Shown in pieces: positions 23,301-34,900 of a DNA stretch of 64,000 bases (within the stretch, counting starts at the first letter, position 1; every line of letters begins with the position of its first letter). The notes under the pieces are model-generated. The model searched no databases and was not told where the DNA came from. It worked only from the letters and a program-made list of their open reading frames with translations. The position numbers and the translations under genes are program-made. This DNA comes from Colius striatus. Lineage: Eukaryota; Chordata; Aves; Coliiformes; Coliidae. Location of the stretch: positions 2,116,513 to 2,180,512 of the forward strand of contig NC_084781.1 in assembly GCF_028858725.1 (NCBI RefSeq), read 5' to 3'.

Positions 23301-26300
23301 AGCTGGAAAGGGAACCAGGACAGCACCACCAGCGATGTCACCTACATAGTGGAGGCTTTCAGGTAGCACCAAGCATCCTCTCCAGGCACAGAGGTGACAC
23401 GATAGCCTGGGGTCACCCCACCATGATCACCCCTGTCCCCTGGCAGCCAGGCAGCGGGTGGCCCGTGGCGGACGGTGGCGGCCAACGTGGCTGGTGAGAC
23501 CCACACGGTGAGCGGCCTCAGCCCCGACACCGTCTACCTCTTCTTGGTGCGGGCGGTCAACAACCACGGGCTCAGTGACCCCAGTGGCATCTCCGAGCCC
23601 GTGTGCACCCAAGGTGAGACCCAGTGGGGACGCTGATGGAGGGGCCATGGACCCATCACCCTTGGGTGCATCTTCACTTGGTGACATCAGTGGAGGTGCC
23701 CATGGACCCATCACCCTTGGGTGCATCTTCCCTTGGTGACATCAGTGGAGGTGCCCATGGACCCATCACCCTTGGGTGTATCCAAAGTTGGTGACATCAG
23801 TGAAGGTGCCCATGGATCCACCACCCTTGGGTCCATCTTCCTTTGGTGATGTTGATGGAGGTGTCTGTGCTCTCACCACCCTTGAGTACCTCTTCACTTG
23901 GTGACACCAATGGAAGTGCCCATGGACCCACCACCTTTGGGTGCATCTTCAGTTGGTGACACCAGTGAAGGTGCCCATGGATCCACCACCCTTGGGTCCA
24001 TCTTCACTTGGTGATGTTGATGGAGGTGTCTGTGCACTCACCACCATTGGGTGCATCTTCAGTTGGTGACACCAGTGAAGACGCCCACGGACCCATCACC
24101 CTTGGGTGCCTCTTATGTTGGTGGCACCAGTGGAAGTATCTATGGACCCACCACTCACATTTTTGGCAGAGGCTGCCCCCACTCAGCAAGGGCTGGACCC
24201 TGAGCGAGTGCAGCGGGAGCTGGCACAAGTGGCCGTGCACCTCCAGGAGCCCGTGGTGCTGCCCCCAGGCACCGTCCACCTCTCCTGGACCGTGAGTGCC
24301 ACATCATGCCCCCGACCCAGTGCTCCCAGTGCCGAGCATCCCCCCCAATCCCACCCTCCCCTCGGCTCCGCAGGTGGAGCGCCCGACGCCCTTCCTTCAG
24401 GGCTACCGGGTGCTGTGCCGGCGGCGCGGCGGGCGCTGGGAGGAGGCACGGGCAGCTGGGGCACCGGGGGAACGGGGGGCTCTGCTCACCGACCTGCGCC
24501 GGGGACAGGACTACGAGGTCAAGGTCCGACCCTACTTCCATCACCTCCACGGCCCCGACAGCGCCGTGCGCGCCCTGCGCACTCCCGAGGCGGGTGAGTG
24601 AGGGGGGACGGCACGGGGGGAAGGGGGTCCGTGGGGACCTCCTGGAGGTGCCAGCTCCCGTGTGTGCCACCCCGCAGCCCCCAGTGCCCCGCCTCGAGCC
24701 GTCAGCGTGGCCGGGAACGGCACCAGCGTCCGCATCTCGTGGCAGCCGCCGCCGCCGGCCGAGCAGAACGGCGTGATCCGCGGTTACTGGGTAAAGCCGG
24801 AGCGCGCTGGGGATGCGGTGGGTCCCCCTCTGCCCCCACCGTGACCTTGTCCTGCCGTCCCCTCTCGTTCCTGCTCCAGATTTGGTGCTTGGGCAACGAG
24901 AGCCGCTTCCACATCAACCAGAGCGTGGAGGGGACGGCGCTGGCGACGGTGCTGAGGGGACTGATCCCCGGCGTCCCTTACCGTGCCGAAGTCGCTGCCG
25001 CCACCGGCGCCGGCGTGGGAGCCCGCAGCCCTCCCGTGCCCATCCGCATCGGTGAGTCCCTCCTCGCTGCCTCCCTCCCCTACGAGCCAGGGAGGGGGGA
25101 CGCCGAGGTTTCTCCCCACACCCCCCCGCAGCCCGCTGGGGACCGCTGCTGTGTCCCCCACGTGTCGCTTGCAGCCCCCCCGGCAGAGCGGGATGCTGGG
25201 CCGGTGGGTGGGAGCAGCGTGGCCGGGCGCTTGGCCGAGGTGGCCCGGCAGCCGGCCTTCATCGCCGGCATCGGCGGCGCCTGCTGGGTCATCCTCGCCG
25301 CCTTCGCCGCTTGGCTCTACGGCCGCCGCCGCAGGAAGAAGGAGCTCAGCCACTTCACCGGTACGGGGCAGGATGCTACCCCTGGGAACAGCCCCCTCTC
25401 CCACCCTGTCAGCCCTCACCCACACCACCATCTCTCTCTTCACAGCCTCCTTTGCCTATACACCCCCGGGCAAGCCCATAGGTGCCGCGGGAGCCCGGCG
25501 CGGCCTCACGCCGCCGGCTCTTCCCGCCGTCGCCTTCCCAGCTCTGGCACATGGCAGCCCCAGGTAACCCCCCGTTCCTTCTCCTGGCATCCCCTGCTCC
25601 TCCAGGACCCCCAGCACCACCCCCGGCATCCCCTCACCCATCTCCTCGCAGGGCAGCCACCGGCGCTGGGTACCCGTGGCTGGCAGACGTGTGGCGCAGC
25701 GGCACAGCCGGTGCCACCGGGTGCTTGGGGACCACCGAGAGATACTACAACGGTGAGAGGGGAAGGCGACTGGAGCTCAGCTTGTGGGGTGGGATGGTCA
25801 CGTTCAGCCCTGATGGTGCCGAAACGCCCCCTGCAGACGCCGGCATCACCCGTTACATCGCCCAGACGGAGCAGTTTGGGGCAGGGGCCGGCGAGGGGCC
25901 GGTTTACAGCACCATCGAGGCAGGCGGTGAGGAGCTCCACGCTTTCCCCCGGCCCTTCTCGCAGCATGGGACCCCTTACCCCGAGGGGGGTCCACAACCC
26001 ATGGATACCCTGGCCCCCCAAGCACCCCGTGGCTGGGCTGAACACGGTAGGGCGGTGGGATGGTGTGGGGAGGGATATGTGGGTGCTGGTGGCACCGTCC
26101 TCTCCCCACAGCCCCCCTCTCCCCCTCGCAGCGTCCTTCCTCGCTGCAGGGGCCAAAGCGAAGAAGCTGGGGCAAGCGGTGAAGCCACCTGCGGTGAGCT
26201 GGACAGAGCTGCTGCCCCCACCACCCTCAGCCAGCGAGCTCAGCCGCTGCACCCAGGAGGAGGAGGAGGAGGATGAAGAGCAAGAAGCAGTCAGAGGGTG

Positions 26301-27830
26301 AGTGTAGGGGGAGCTTGGGGAAGCTGAGGCGTGCTGGCCCCCAGCACCCACCCTGTGGGCTCTGCTCTGCAGGCTGAGGATGGAGGAGTGGTACCCTGGT
26401 GAGGATGTCCCCTGTGCCACTGCTGCATCCTCGCCCGTGGCCTCATCCGGCTGCCGGTCCACTGCCACGCTGACGCCGTCGCCCCGCACCGCTGAGGACA
26501 TTGCCCACCTCCATGACTTCGATAGCCCCCGCCTCACCCGGTAGGAGATGAACCTTGCTTGGTCCGGCTGTGCCATGGAGGTCTGGATGTCCCATTGGGG
26601 TCTGGATGTCCCATCATGATCCAACCATGCTGTCATGATCCAGCCCTCCTGTGCCATCATGGTCCAGCCATGCCATCAGGGTTTGGATGTCCCAATGGGG
26701 TCTGGTCCAGCCATGCCATCAGGGTTTGGATGTCCCAATGGGGTCTGGTCCAGCCATGCCATCAGAGTTTGGATGTCACAATGGGGTCTGGTCCAGCCAT
26801 GCCATCAGGGTTTGGATGTCCCAATGGGGTCTGGTCCAGCCATGCCATCAGGGTTTGGATGTCCCAATGGGGTCTGGTCCAGCCATACCATCAGGGTTTG
26901 GATATCCCAATGGGGTCTGGATGTCACATCATGATCCAACCATGTTGTCATGATCCAACCCTACTGTGCCATCATGGTCCAGCCATGCCATCAGAGTTTG
27001 GATGTCCCAATGGGGTCTGGATGTCCCCACTGTCAGTCACTGTGCCCCTCATTAGCTCCTCACCCCCTTCCACCTTCACCCCACACTCCTCTCTTTACCA
27101 GGAGACCCTCCTATGGCACCAGCACTCCGCCACGGGCACCCAGCCCCTCACTGAATCCGGATGCCAACCAGGGCCACCCATCCCGAGCCCACCGCCTCCC
27201 TGGCACAGGTGAGCCCTTGGAGGGTGGGTGCACATCTCATTGACTGAGGGGTCCTGACCCTGCCATCATCCTCAGGGAAAACACGTGAGGAGACCCCAAA
27301 AAGTCGCCCAAAGCCCAAATGCAGCCGCTACCGGTGCGAGAAGCAGCCAGGAGGTGAGTAGGGGGAGAAATGAGGGGTGTCTAAGGGGTGTTCTGGGGGG
27401 ATCTAATGGGGGTTCCCAGGGAGGGTCTAAGGGGGGTCCCAGGGGGGTCTAAGTCAGCTCCCTCCACACTACAGACCTGCCACCGCCACCGCTGCCGCCG
27501 CCAGGCGAGAGCCCCATCCCCTCGCTGGAGCGGGAGCCGAGCAGGGTTCCCCATCGCCCACCCCGCGGGGGTAAGTCAGAGCCACGGCGGTTTGGAAGGG
27601 GGAGCATCACCCCCCGACCCCCTCCATCACCTCTCCCCCTTCCCTTTGCAGACGAAGCAATGCCCTGCTCCAAACCCTCCTGCTTGCCACGAGGCCAAGT
27701 GTCCGGCAGCTGCTCCACCACGGGCAGCGTCTCGTCCCGCGGTTCCACCGGCTCCCGCGGCCGGACCCTGGGAGAGCGCCGGCACCGCCCGGGACCTCCA
27801 TTGCCCTGCCCGCCACAGGAGAAGCGATGA
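17377..27830 (+). CDS. ROBO3: ROBO3, roundabout guidance receptor 3 (complete, 26 coding exons)
   Basis: Single-pass receptor controlling midline crossing of commissural axons. Exons: 17377-17524, 18692-19018, 19812-19969, 20043-20163, 20245-20383, 21166-21293, 21386-21510, 22074-22245, 22331-22542, 23030-23111, 23197-23362, 23447-23613, 24170-24291, 24374-24593, 24678-24790, 24880-25051, 25175-25360, 25446-25563, 25652-25752, 25837-26046, 26132-26297, 26373-26540, 27102-27208, 27276-27353, 27475-27570, 27652-27830. All join in phase, giving 1326 aa (human about 1386). The N-terminus [19 protein letters not shown] is nearly invariant against human ROBO3. Five Ig domains (exons 2-10, residues ~50-537), three FN3 domains (exons 11-16, ~538-857), a transmembrane helix [16 protein letters not shown] (~886-907), then a tail with CC0 ([13 protein letters not shown]), a CC2-like [11 protein letters not shown] and the CC3 proline block [10 protein letters not shown]. 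No CC1 motif is visible, as known for ROBO3. Exon 21 has a second acceptor 18 nt downstream (26150). Most larger introns are minisatellites. Confidence 0.95.
17690..18260. repeat. Degenerate 'gtccccaaac' repeat, ROBO3 intron 1
   Basis: Irregular units of about 25-35 bp built from tgtccccaaaccggacc, gtccccacac and gagctggga blocks fill the first half of ROBO3 intron 1. The rest of the intron (18260-18691) is unique sequence without an evident feature. Confidence 0.75.
19140..19620. repeat. Purine-rich GAAA-type tract, ROBO3 intron 2
   Basis: Nearly 480 bp of almost pure purine on the plus strand, made of variants of ggaaaagaaatg and gaaagaaagg. It fills most of intron 2 between the Ig1 and Ig2 exons. 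Such strand-asymmetric tracts can form triplex (H-DNA) structures. Confidence 0.85.
20420..21125. repeat. 'CATCACATCC' repeat, ROBO3 intron 5
   Basis: About 700 bp of shuffled short units such as gtccccatcacatcc, tacatccctattgt and atctccatc. It splits the Ig3 domain between exons 5 and 6. The 286-aa ORF reading across it is Ser/His/Pro low complexity and is not a gene. Confidence 0.87.
21510..22070. repeat. 'CCATCCCTGTCC' repeat, ROBO3 intron 7
   Basis: About 560 bp of pyrimidine-rich hexamer and dodecamer variants (cccatc, cctgtc, catccttgtc). It starts immediately after the exon 7 donor and runs to the exon 8 acceptor, interrupting the Ig4 domain. Confidence 0.87.
22560..23015. repeat. 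'gtgggtgcaaaggg' repeat, ROBO3 intron 9
   Basis: Variable units of about 15-30 bp such as gtgggtgcaaagggagatg and gtgctgagggtggtgg fill intron 9, between the two exons of Ig5. Confidence 0.83.
23640..24155. repeat. 55-bp minisatellite, ROBO3 intron 12
   Basis: About nine copies of a 55-bp unit containing catggacccatcacccttgg, gtgcatcttcacttggtgac and atcagtggagg. The cleanest unit starts are 23647, 23702 and 23757. The array lies between the FN3-1 and FN3-2 exons. Confidence 0.88.
26560..27030. repeat. 43-bp minisatellite, ROBO3 intron 22
   Basis: Tandem 43-bp unit (gccatgccatcagggtttgg, then atgtcccaatggggtctggt, then cca), nearly identical in 26660-26900 and degenerate at both edges. Low divergence suggests recent expansion and likely length polymorphism. 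Confidence 0.9.
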
Positions 27831-28983: not shown

Positions 28984-31900
28984 TTATGAGTGACATCGTG
29001 TACCCGCTGTGCCCATCACCCTGGCATCCGGGCACTGCTCACCATGCTGCATGATGCCCACAGCTGCCTCTGTCCCAGCTCTCCTTGGCACCCCCAGTGC
29101 CATCCTCCAATCCCAGGTGGGAATGGAGACCCCGGGCAAGAAGACTCCCTCTGAGGGTGATGGTGGTGGTGAGAGACCTGCCAGGGAGAAGGCAGGAGAT
29201 GGTGGCATCATGATGGGGCCACCACCCCCAGGGGGATGATGCATGAGGGGTCTGGGCATGCTTCACTCACCCCCATAGCCCCCATCAGTGTCCTCAAGGC
29301 TGAAGCAGAGGCCATCGACGGCCACAGCCAGTGCCCGGGCAAAGCTGGCATCCAGGAGGAAGGAGCCATCGCAGGAGCTCACCAAGCTGCAGCGGGCGCT
29401 GGCAAAGTTGTCCTCTGAGACTGACCCCCAACTATTCAGCAGTGACCCCTCTGGAGAGCCTCTGGTTGCTGGCTGCTCTTCCTCCTCCTCTTCTTCCTCC
29501 TCCTCCTCCTCACCCAGCTCAGAAGCTGGTGGCCCATAGATGTAGCCGTAGGTGTGCAGAGGCGAGAGGGACCGTGGCATGGTGGGCACTGGGGGGCTGT
29601 GAGGGACAAAGTTGGGATGCTGCTGGCAGTGGGGGATCCTGCCATTGTAGTGGTGTCACAGGGGGGATGGGGTTGTACCTGAGGGAGGTGGTGTCCTCGT
29701 TCATCTCCAGGTCTTCAGCCACTTGCTGTGGCGTGAGGACCCCGTCGCTGAACGTTGGTGAGAGGCGACCGGTGACCGGAGACCTGTCCCTGGGATTCCT
29801 GGTGCTTGGGGACACATCCTTAGGGTGCCTGGAGGCCAGGAGCGTGTCCCTCCGGTGACCAGTCACTGGAGACATCTCTTCAGGGTGTTTGGTGACTGGG
29901 GATGAGCTCTTGAGGTGCCTCATGGCTGGTGACACATCTCCAGGGTACCTGGTGGTCAAGACCATGTCCCTTGAGTGCCTGGTCACTGGTGATGGGTGCC
30001 TGAGGCACCTGGCAGCCAGGGACACATCCTTGGGGTACCTGTTGCCCAAGAATGTGTCCTTGCATTGATTGGGGACTGGAGAAATCTCCACAGGGTGTCC
30101 AGTGGCTGGGGACACATCTTTGGGATGTCTGATGGCTGGGGACGTGTCCTTGGGGTGTCTGGTGCCCAAGAACTTGTCCCTTTGGTGGCTGGGGGCTGGG
30201 GACATCTCCTCAGGGTGTCTGGTGACCGAGGATGTGTCCTTGGGGCAGCCAGTGGCTGGGAATCTGTCCTGGGGACGCCTGATGGCTGGTGACATGTTCT
30301 CGGGGTACCTACTGGACAGGAACATGTCTGTTGGGTGTCTGGTCATCGGTGATGGGTCTCTGGGGTACTTGGTGGCCAGAGATGTGCCCTCGTGGTACCT
30401 GGTGGCCAGGAACTTGTCCCTGTGGTGCACAGTGGCTGGAGACTTCTCCTGGGGCAGCCTAGTGACTGAGGACATGTCCCTTGGGTGCCCCCTGGCTGGA
30501 GACATGTCCTCAGAGTGTCTGGTGGCCAGTGGCTTTTCCCTATGGCTCTTGGTCACTGGTGGTGAATCCCTGGGGTACTTGGTGATCGGGGACATGTCCC
30601 TGGGGCAGCTGGTGACCAGAGACGTGTCCTCGGAGTGCCTGGTGACCGAGACCGTGTCCCTCTGGTTCCTGGAGGCTGGTGATGGCTCCTTGGGCTGCTT
30701 GGTGGATGGGGACATGTCCCTGGGCTGCCTGGTTACTGGTGACACATTCTTGGTGTGCCTGGTAGCTGGGGACATGTCCTTGGGGTGCTCAGTCACCAAG
30801 GATATGTCCCTAGGGCACCTGGTGACCAGTGACACTCCCTTGGGGCTCTCAGAGGCCAGAGATGTGTCCCTGGGGTACCGGGTGGCCAGAGACATGTCCA
30901 CAGTGACTGGAGATGCATCCTTGGTGATAGGGGAGGTGTTCCTGGGGCACACGGTGGCCGGGGACCTGCAGGTGCAGAGAGACACAGTGGCTTTTGCAAC
31001 AGGAGGTTGGGGTGCAGGGCACCAGACACCCAGACTCACCGTGTCACCGGCGGGTGCCAGGCGTGGGGTGGCCTCGGCGGTGTCACTGGTGACCCAGTGC
31101 CACCAGAGCCCATCGAGACACTGCCCCTCTGTGATTTGGGGGAGCTGAAGACCGGCAGCCCTCTGGCCATCACGGCAGCATCGGTGTCACCGTCATGTCC
31201 CCTTCGCTGAGGCCACCCTGCTGCTACCTCCAAACCCGTCACCCACTCGCCGGGGCCGCCCATGAGGGCCGGGGTGCTGTGCACTTGGTGCAGCTCTGCA
31301 AGGACACAGAGCTGTGAGCCCCCTCCTCCCCACAGCCCTCCCGTGGCACCCCCTCCTGCCCCATAGACCCACCTCGCTTGCGGGTGCACACCCGGGAGTC
31401 GGAGTTGGGGGTGCTGGGTGAGGTCCTCACCCCAGGGTGCCCCGCACGGAAGCTGCTGTGGGTGGGAGGCGTGGGGGGGCCAAAGCTTGATGGCTCCAAG
31501 GACAGGGCTGGAAGTATGAGAGGGGTCAGAGCACCCATGGGTGCTAGTTGGGTGTCCCCTGCCCCCCTCTGCCTTCCCCAGGTCCCATGGCAATGGGGAC
31601 CACCCAGTTGGGGGTCCCAGATGGGGATATCAGGCACCTTTTGATGATCCCCTTGTACCCTGGGAGAGTCCCAACATTGGGTGGGGGTCCAGTGGCAGCA
31701 GGTGAGGGGTCCCATGGAACTACAGAGAGGTCCCAGGGGACTGAGTGGGGAGTCCTATGTGGGGGTCTCATTGGGATGAGTGGGGAGTCCTGTGGTCACC
31801 TGGGGGTGGGTTCCATAGCACTAGATGAGGATCCCGTGGCTCTGAATGGGGGTCCCAGCCCAGGGCCTCATTGAAAGACTGGGGATCCCATATCTCTGAG

Positions 31901-34900
31901 TGGGGATCTCAGCCCAGGGGCTCACTGGAGGGATGGGGGTCCCGTGACTCTGAGTGGGGGTCCCAGCCCAGGGGCTCACTGGAGGGATGGGGGTCCCGTG
32001 ACTCTGAGTGGGGGTCCCAGCCCAGGGGCTCACTGGAGGGATGGGGGGTCCCATGACTCTGAGTGGGGGTCCCAGCCCAGGGGCTCACTGGAGGGATGGG
32101 GGTCCCTGCCATCGCTGCCCAGGAGCCGACTGCTGAGGCTGCTGCTGCTGCTGAGGTTTTGGGGGGCACAGACGGGTTTCCAGGGGCCACCAAGCCACGG
32201 TGAGTCACCAGCCATCAACCTGTGGGGTGAGGAGCATCACTGGGGCCATCCCATCCCCACCACCCTGGGGGTTACCACCACCCAACCCCACGGCCTCTCA
32301 CCTGCGTCGAGCCGCGGCGTCCCGGCTGGCGCGGCGCTGGCAGAGGAGGAGGAGGAGGGCGAGCAAGGCCAACCAGAGCAGCGAGCCGGTGGCGGCGATG
32401 ACGGCAGGCTGCCTCAGCACCCGCACCACCACACTGCTCCCTGCTGCCAGCCCTGTGAGGGTCCCACCAGCGTCACCCTGCTGCCACCACCCTGACCCAC
32501 CACACACACACACACACACACCCCCCCACACACACACCCCCACACCGCTCCCCATCCCCTACCCAGGGCTCCACAGGTGACGTTGCTGGGGACCCCCAGG
32601 CCTGCACTGTTGAAAGCTGCCACCTGGAAGCAGAATTCGGCCCCAGGGCCTGGCAGGAAGGTTTCCAGGTGGTGGGTGCCTCCGTCGACTGTCCTGTTGG
32701 TGGGACGCTGCCAGCCCTCGCCTGTTGACCAGACCTGGCAAGCACCAAGAGGATGGGCACCCTTAGATGGATCCCTTGGATGGGCTCTCATTGATGGACT
32801 CACTTCATGGACCCTCTCTGAGATGAACAGCCCCTGGATGAGGCTTCTTGGATGAATCCCCTTGATGGACAAGCTTGGATGGGCTCCCTTAGGTGAGTCC
32901 ACTTGATAGACCCCCACTGATGGAACCTCTCTTTGGATAGATGACTCCTTTAGATGAACCCCCTTGGGTGAACCCATTTGGATGGACCTCCTTGGGTTGA
33001 ATTCCCTTGGACGACCCACTTTGATCCCTTGGATGGATCTCTTGTGCTGGACCTCCACCTTGTTTGGCCTCTTTGGATGAACTTCTTTGCCTAGATCCAT
33101 GTTGGATGGATCACTCCGACTGATCCCCCTTAGACAGACCCCTTGGATGGACCCCTTTTTGCCTTCCCCCACCCTGTGACCCCCCAAACCTTGTAGCCCT
33201 GGATGATGCCATTGTGGGCTTCAGCAGGAGGTGGCTCCCAGCTCACGACCACGGTGCCATTCTCCATCTCAGGCCGGCCCACCATGACGTGCTGAGGTGC
33301 CGCGCTCGGCACTGCGGGGACAGAACGGCTGAGACCCCCCTAAGGGCACCCCCAGCTGCCACCCCTCATCCCGGGGGGGCACCCCTCACCCAACACACCT
33401 TCCTCAGGTATCCAGAGGTATCTGCTGTTGCTCTCCAAGCCCTGGATCCCTCCAGCGTAGGGTCGGACCTTGAACTCGTACTTGTGGCCCCTGCGGAGCG
33501 CGGGGACAGTGGTGCTGAGCTCCCTGCCCGTGTCGTGCTGTGCCCACGATGTGGCCCCAGGGAGGAGGCAGCGGTACAGCACCACGTAACCCTCCGGCAC
33601 CGGCGCCGGCGTCACCATCTAGAGAGGATGGGGAAGGATAGGAAACATGGTGGGATCCGGATGGGACACGGGGATGGAGGCTGGAGCCTCATCTCTGTGC
33701 CGTGTGTCCCTCCACCCCTGCAGGGGGGACGTGCCAGTGTCACACCAACCCGCCAGCGGAGCCGGACGGCGGCACTGGGCAGCGCCGTGACGTTGTCCAG
33801 CTGCAGCCGCACAGCCAGGAGGTCCCGTGGTGCAGCCTCTCGCCGGTCTGTAGGGCAGAGGGTGGTTAATGGCAGTGCCAGGCAGAAGAAGATCTCCCAA
33901 CACCTGCCCAGGCACCCATGGCTGGAGATCCTGATGGAGACTCCTCCAATGGAGCTCTCTTGGATGGAACCCCTCAGATACTCTTTGATGGATCTGTCTT
34001 GGATGGACATGTGTTGGGTGGACCCCATGGCATGGATAGACTTCCTATGATGCTTCCCTTTTAGATGGACCCTTTGGATGGATACTTCTTGTCAGATCCC
34101 CCTTTACTGGACCCTCTGACCTTGGACAGACCCCCTCTTAAATGGATTCTCCTGGAAGAACCCACTTGGAAATGATCCCTTTAGGTGGACTCTCTGGAAT
34201 GAATCCTCTGGATGAACCCCTATCTAGATGTATCCCCTTAGATGGCTCCCCTTCTAAGGACATGCTTGGATGGATCCTTAGATGGATGCTTTTAGATGGA
34301 CCTCCTGAGAAGGACCCACTTTGAAAGCAACCCCTTTCATTGACCCTCCTCAAATAGACCCCCTTAGATCACTCAGTTGGGTGGACTTTTTTATGATGGA
34401 CCTCCTTGGATGGACCCCATGGATGGACTCTTCTTGGATGGACCTCTTTGGATGGACCCCATGGATGGGCTCTTCTTGGATGGACCTCTTTGGACGGACC
34501 CCATGGATGGACTCTTCTTGGATGGATCTCTTTGGATGGACCCCATGGATGGACTCTTCTTGGATGGATCTCTTTGGATGGACCCCATGGATGGACTCTT
34601 CTTGGATGGATCTCTTTGGATGGACCCCATGGATGGACTCTTCTTGGATGGACCTCTTTGGACGGACCCCATGGATGGACTCTTCTTGGATGGACCTCAT
34701 GGATGAACCTGCCTCGCCTAGATTCCCCATGGATGACCTCCCTTGGATGAACCCCTATAGATGGACTCTTGTTGGACAGATCCCCTTTGTGTGGCCCCTC
34801 AGACAGCCCTGGGTGCCCATGGAGGTCCCATCACTGACCCTCCACGCTGAGGTGGGCGGTGGCGGCGGCGGTGCCCAGCTGGCTCTGCGCCGTACACACG

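Follow-up and report, generated by a model that had tools for sequence, protein, structure and literature searches.

A diverged ten-codon tandem array in a probable coding exon of ROBO4 in Colius striatus

Tandem repeats within coding exons are already a known kind of sequence, one example being the ten-codon repeats of involucrin. MUC7 contains a coding minisatellite, or subexonic repeat, composed of 69-bp PTS repeats (PMC4997351). Repeat blocks occupy the introns of genes on chicken dot chromosomes, where 'sequence stuttering' sometimes copies the edge of an exon together with its splice site; in the sections of that report consulted here, no repeat block was observed crossing into an exon (PMC12954441).

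The array described here lies in the predicted cytoplasmic tail of the guidance receptor ROBO4 of Colius striatus. It resembles coding minisatellites of the MUC7 type in being a Ser/Thr/Pro-rich tandem repeat within a predicted coding exon, with a unit that is a multiple of three and a frame that is kept; it differs from them in its place, a receptor tail rather than a secreted protein, and in its copies, which are strongly diverged, neighbouring units being no more alike than distant ones. The surprise is the size and place of the array and not its nature. On the sequence evidence we consider exon 14 of ROBO4 very likely to contain a coding minisatellite, presumably kept open and in frame by selection that constrains its sequence only loosely. 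Among the titles and abstract openings retrieved on ROBO4 in chicken and other birds, tandem repeats and related subjects, none mentions the array. To our knowledge the human ROBO4 tail is without such an array; the exon structure of human ROBO4 was not found in the literature searched.

The window, meaning the whole stretch of 64,000 nucleotides analysed, occupies 2.12-2.18 Mb of a 7.2-Mb contig (NC_084781.1), and the genome searched comprises 1.21 Gb in 191 contigs. On the minus strand 16 coding exons of a predicted gene were placed between 35870 and 29043, all in frame; AG precedes 15 of them (all except the ATG exon) and GT stands behind all 16. The model encodes 1229 residues, a final small exon being left out of the count. 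In the sections consulted of one account (PMC3933320), ROBO4 is described with a pair each of Ig and FN3 domains; Pfam calls two I-set domains and a single fn3 in the present ectodomain, residues 225-416 match ROBO1 chain 4hlj, and the top PDB matches are Roundabout 2 and 1, as expected of a Roundabout-type receptor. The tail carries ROBO blocks (exon 15 against the ROBO1 tail, E 3e-22) and the neighbouring gene is ROBO3-like and convergent, an order that we take to be shared with mammals. Judged by its sequence and neighbourhood, the predicted minus-strand gene is ROBO4. The sequence-only reading had reached the same identification, and its boundaries, length, splice dinucleotides and frame for the array exon were right (Table 1): AG stands before the exon and GT behind it, its phases are 2/2, and both junctions are in frame with the adjoining exons 13 and 15; what it had called exon 13 is exon 14 when the ATG exon is counted as 1.

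Table 1. Predicted features at the ROBO4 locus and its neighbour, numbered from the first base of the window.
Feature	Position	Strand	Remarks
ROBO4 exon 13	31040..31295	-	CC2-like position; last codon split; in frame with exon 14
ROBO4 intron 13	30966..31039	-	74 nt
ROBO4 exon 14	29679..30965	-	1287 nt; GT-AG sites; phase 2 in, 2 out; predicted
30-bp array	29753..30964	-	41 units; consensus SPATRHPKDM; within exon 14
Alternative acceptor	29738..29758	-	AG at 29749-29748; exon start 29747; phase 2; score -0.19
Block after array, 3' of repeats	29679..29749	-	taken as counterpart of the ROBO1/2/3 LTP block
ROBO4 exon 15	29271..29596	-	HTYGYI and WGSxSED blocks; ROBO1 tail match E 3e-22
ROBO3-like gene	18721 to ~27.8 kb (end by eye)	+	convergent with ROBO4
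ROBO3 counterpart exon	26373..26540	+	168 nt; phase 2 in, 2 out; without array

Several minor features of the locus may be recorded here. Exon 15 encodes a run of 12 glutamates (window 29476-29511) arising from a CTC/CTT repeat on the plus strand. Minisatellites also lie between exons of the ROBO3-like gene, one of 43 bp at 26660-26920 and another, probably of 55 bp, at 23637-24154, and a stretch near 28.0-28.5 kb is presumably CR1-like. Chicken ROBO4 is listed among differentially expressed genes, with no exon detail, in the sections consulted of one study (PMC9249230); the qPCR primers given for chicken 'ROBO4' in the available part of another (XM_015298082.1; PMC6003946) have no exact match in the window, which reflects either a species difference or a mislabelled record.

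The position of the array can be compared with the other ROBO genes of the same genome. Two ROBO genes, which we take to be ROBO1 and ROBO2, were located on another contig (C1) with the ROBO4 tail as query. We assume that exon 13 and its ROBO counterparts may be given the name CC2; the ROBO1 counterpart carries LPPPPAHPPPHSN near its end. CC0 and CC2 are both described as present in ROBO4 in the sections consulted of the earlier account (PMC3933320). The exon that follows the CC2 exon measures 252 nt in ROBO1, 261 nt in ROBO2 and 168 nt in ROBO3, has phases 2/2 in all three, as in ROBO4, and bears an LTP block in its 3' part; the ROBO4 exon differs in its length of 1287 nt and in its array, which is absent from all three counterparts. 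Ahead of the LTP motif in the same exon stand 54 residues in ROBO1, 54 in ROBO2 and 32 in ROBO3, so the ROBO4 exon should extend well upstream of its own LTP block, as it does, by 409 residues, when the array is taken as exonic. Position and intron phase suggest that the LTP block of ROBO4 is homologous to those of ROBO1/2/3, the residue-level signal being weak: its alignment gave p 0.066 with ROBO3, 0.66 with ROBO1 and 0.71 with ROBO2, and MAFFT did not place it under the LTP of ROBO1 and ROBO3. Introns 12, 13 and 14 of the ROBO4 model are alike in length (77, 74 and 82 nt).

The repeats begin directly behind the acceptor at 30965, as had been observed from the sequence alone. The proposed number, about 40 decapeptides, was close to the exact count of 41: 39 units have the full 30 bp, while units 2 and 3 have 21 bp each. 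We read the short units as 9-bp deletions; a wraparound aligner instead places 5- and 7-bp insertions there, summing to 12, and under either alignment the frame is recovered after them. The low identity attributed to the repeats is borne out by a mean of 0.586 over pairs of the 39 full units, with 0.867 for the best pair; self-match at lags of 30, 60, 90 and 120 is 0.55-0.57, and the copies depart from their consensus at 28% of sites. Neighbouring units are 0.568 identical, against 0.586 for random pairs, so that homogenisation at lag 1 is absent (p 0.94; of the ten lags, p was 0.045 at lag 7 and 0.06 at lag 8). Homogenisation between neighbours is likewise absent in four of five control arrays, and its absence is thus not distinctive. 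The 21-bp units were left out of this comparison, as of the permutation test and codon models below. The 428 full codons of exon 14 contain no stop, and the sole stop-free frame of the array is the one fixed by exon 13 and the downstream block: the three sense frames hold 0, 8 and 10 stops and the antisense frames 12, 2 and 19, which makes the warning in the sequence-only reading that both strands would be open nearly, if not exactly, right.

Its more general caution, that the length of an open frame proves little, was well founded, and an open frame was rejected as proof of coding, 27 stretches of the window being stop-free over 250 codons or more. These include both the array and its antisense; the stretch containing the array runs to 555 codons, and two others are longer, at 567 and 581. 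Elsewhere in the genome, one 30-bp array is open in three frames and another in four, each array being 2.3-2.4 kb long. In a permutation test in which the substitutions of the 39 full units were shuffled among like consensus bases, there were no stops where 2.5 were expected (p 0.075 and 0.096), and no clear shortage of nonsynonymous changes was found, with 234 observed where 238 were expected (p 0.28 and 0.37). Constraint looked slightly greater, if it differed, in the antisense codon register, which had 207 such changes for an expectation of 220 (p 0.03 and 0.13). Codon models, which are uncalibrated in this setting, were fitted as GY+F3X4 on a fixed tree, and gave the sense frame an omega of 0.582, lower than in any of the other five frames; with kappa fixed at 6.5, 2 dlnL against omega 1 was 8.65. 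The antisense register gave 0.62 and two wrong frames 1.9-2.0. Under MG+F1X4 the sense frame, at 0.743, was third lowest of six (0.638-1.143), the antisense register being at 0.638. The low antisense omega, the values in the wrong frames and the MG ranking together make the codon-model result weak support for coding.

The frame of the array is never permanently lost across 334 substitutions to consensus, whereas in 18 window arrays selected automatically there are 77 indels of lengths not divisible by three in 658 substitutions, and a hand-picked set of control arrays (12, of which 11 were measured) shows on average many frame-breaking indels. When the 14 control arrays with at least 20 substitutions are taken singly, 11 predict at least five breaks in 334 substitutions and three predict none. 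Outside the window, three 30-bp arrays, which came from a protein search and are hence biased towards open ones, all lack such indels, in 114, 134 and 24 substitutions. Averaged over the window controls, the probability of no break is 0.07 and that of at most two, the like-for-like count, is 0.14; adding the three outside arrays raises these values to 0.14 and 0.24. The aligner also gives the ROBO4 array its cancelling 5- and 7-bp insertions. Since indel rates differ widely between arrays and are low in the outside 30-bp arrays, frame conservation, which lies in the right direction, is not significant against controls, and indels too were rejected as proof of coding.

Choosing between an exonic and an intronic array turns mainly on the exon structure of the paralogues and on the splice sites. 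Scored with a matrix built from ROBO4's own other acceptors, the acceptor at 30965 reaches 10.7 bits, fourth among the gene's 15; it tops the 115 AGs between 31030 and 29681, and across the window only 0.5% of AGs on the minus strand score as high. Were the array an intronic minisatellite, exon 13 would join position 29747 and the true exon would have 69 nt (DGVLTPQQV...). The AG at 29749-29748 does yield phase 2 and a clean reading frame, and its score, matched or exceeded by 12% of minus-strand AGs in the window, surpasses two of the gene's other 14 acceptors; tandem arrays are present in several ROBO4 introns (for example at 34395-34776 and 31824-32106), the stuttering blocks of chicken, in the sections consulted, keep out of exons (PMC12954441), and the array itself has no clear purifying signal and a frame conservation that is not significant. 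The acceptor at 30965, however, is about 11 bits stronger than that at 29747, would be encountered first, only 74 nt from the donor, and has the array beginning exactly at its exon side, and the shorter exon would leave three residues before LTP against the 32-54 of the three paralogues; we accordingly regard an intronic array as improbable. GC3 is 0.735, inside the span of 0.50-0.88 found in the other exons, and the CpG observed/expected ratio of the array, 0.19, falls between 0.56 in the other coding sequence and 0.06 in five ROBO4 introns; similarity between intron 13 and the array is within chance (p 0.18). The exon 14 array is most probably coding, as the sequence-only reading had proposed, the chief grounds being the acceptor and the way the exon is built in the paralogues.

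Even as exonic sequence, the array might be used optionally, either as an exitron, spliced out in part or entirely from internal sites, or as a skipped exon, so that long and short tails coexist. Because no other of ROBO4's 16 donors scores as low as that at 29679 (-2.32), partial or optional inclusion of exon 14 is a real possibility, if a minority one: the exon is symmetric (2/2), so that skipping preserves the frame, more than a dozen of the 67 GT sites in 30965-29673 beat its own donor (the best, 4.97, at 30313), and further AGs inside the array score up to 7.88. Skipping would, on the other side, cost the LTP block. That the array should be an artefact of assembly is scarcely credible. 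GC-rich avian tandem arrays are difficult to sequence, according to the part consulted of one source (PMC6792250), but duplicated reads would appear near-identical, and these units are diverged to the extent given above; the genome search with the repeat protein, moreover, found one place of 100% identity among the best candidates scored.

If the exon is included and translated, the array would supply 404 residues, or 405 up to the SDGVLTP block. A large in-frame addition had been foreseen, at about 390 residues, as had abundant Ser-Pro sites, put at about 22; the 405 residues include 25 Ser-Pro, count 65 basic residues to 41 acidic ones, and fall below the charge-hydropathy boundary (0.386 against 0.435), on the disordered side. 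The predicted product is probably a disordered spacer of some 400 residues, rich in Ser, Pro, Thr and charge, and it probably separates the CC2-like region from the conserved C-terminal blocks. Since the copies are without clear purifying selection, a loosely constrained spacer fits them better than a conserved docking repeat. A selected module for multisite phosphorylation or docking would find its motifs in the 25 Ser-Pro sites and in 14 instances of [RK]xxSP, but any Ser-Pro/basic repeat would give such a density, and with 28% divergence from consensus and no clear excess of synonymous change we think a module of this kind unlikely, though individual Ser-Pro sites may be phosphorylated. As a translated spacer, the array would make up about one third of the modelled protein (405/1229) and about one half of the cytoplasmic tail (405/770), and would constitute a natural test of how much length the ROBO4 tail of a vascular receptor tolerates. 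The CC2-like region in ROBO4 is described as recruiting Mena in the sections consulted of one account (PMC3933320).

The array may have arisen in a segment, between the end of the CC2-like exon and the LTP block, whose length varies among the four ROBO genes compared here. In ROBO4 this segment would have become a run of tandem ten-codon units, for which the seed could have been the SP[AV] stretch found ahead of LTP in the paralogues, a guess for which the residue-level signal is weak. With a unit length that is a multiple of three, units could be gained or lost silently as regards frame, and growth of the array would for that reason be tolerated, while stops and frameshifts would delete the C-terminal blocks and should be purged. 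Nothing above chance linked the unit to neighbouring exon or intron sequence in any of nine stretches compared (two of them overlapping), and the present copies give no sign of recent local duplication. Avian neutral rates lie near 2e-9 per year. With about 0.35 substitutions per site (Jukes-Cantor, from an identity of 0.72), the array would on this clock be well over 100 million years old. A tentative and rather doubtful proposal is that the array expanded before living birds diversified, that its turnover then ceased, and that its frame has been preserved ever since as the copies accumulated changes; were it true, a basic, Ser-Pro spacer of about 400 residues would alter ROBO4 signalling in the endothelium of birds generally.

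Relatives of the repeat were sought more widely. A Pfam search returned Extensin_1 alone, below its cut-off (19.6 against 105), a PDB search found no match up to E 1, and a scan of viral_contigs for stray vertebrate DNA found none. Against its own genome, the other 12 matches of the repeat protein among the best candidates scored are 21-37% identical, and by self-match the loci of the weaker ones (L003-L009) resemble other simple arrays. TRF, run on five of these loci, found 30-bp arrays with substitutions at L003, L004 and L005, a perfect 30-bp array at L009, and no array of period 28-32 at L008. The arrays at G000:C40:1008844-1011279 (L003, L006) and G000:C39:41295573-41297384 (L005, L007) are young, with 94-95% identity, 2.3-2.4 kb in extent, indel-free, and open over more than 850 codons. 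That at G000:C57:7364-8074 (L004) covers 911 nt at 97% identity, and all five of its indels are of 9 bp, so that 9-bp steps are not special to ROBO4.

The ROBO4 array is like stuttering, as described in the sections consulted, in being a tandem expansion of local extent within an avian gene rich in minisatellites; the difference is that stuttering blocks are confined to introns and this array lies within a predicted exon (PMC12954441). It also lacks the copied exon edge or splice site of the exon form, the neighbouring stretches showing nothing beyond chance, and for this reason we do not class it as stuttering; at most it would be the coding outcome of a similar process. If translated, it would represent repeat expansion within a coding exon in a bird gene that has expanded repeats in its introns as well. 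Intron 11 of ROBO4 contains, at 31824-32106 on the minus strand, a 54-bp array that does have the exon-stuttering form: three further copies of the exon 11 end with its donor (32089) follow at 32034, 31980 and 31926, at a spacing of 54-55 bp. Splicing from one of these copies would lengthen the exon by 55, 109 or 163 nt, a frameshift in every case.
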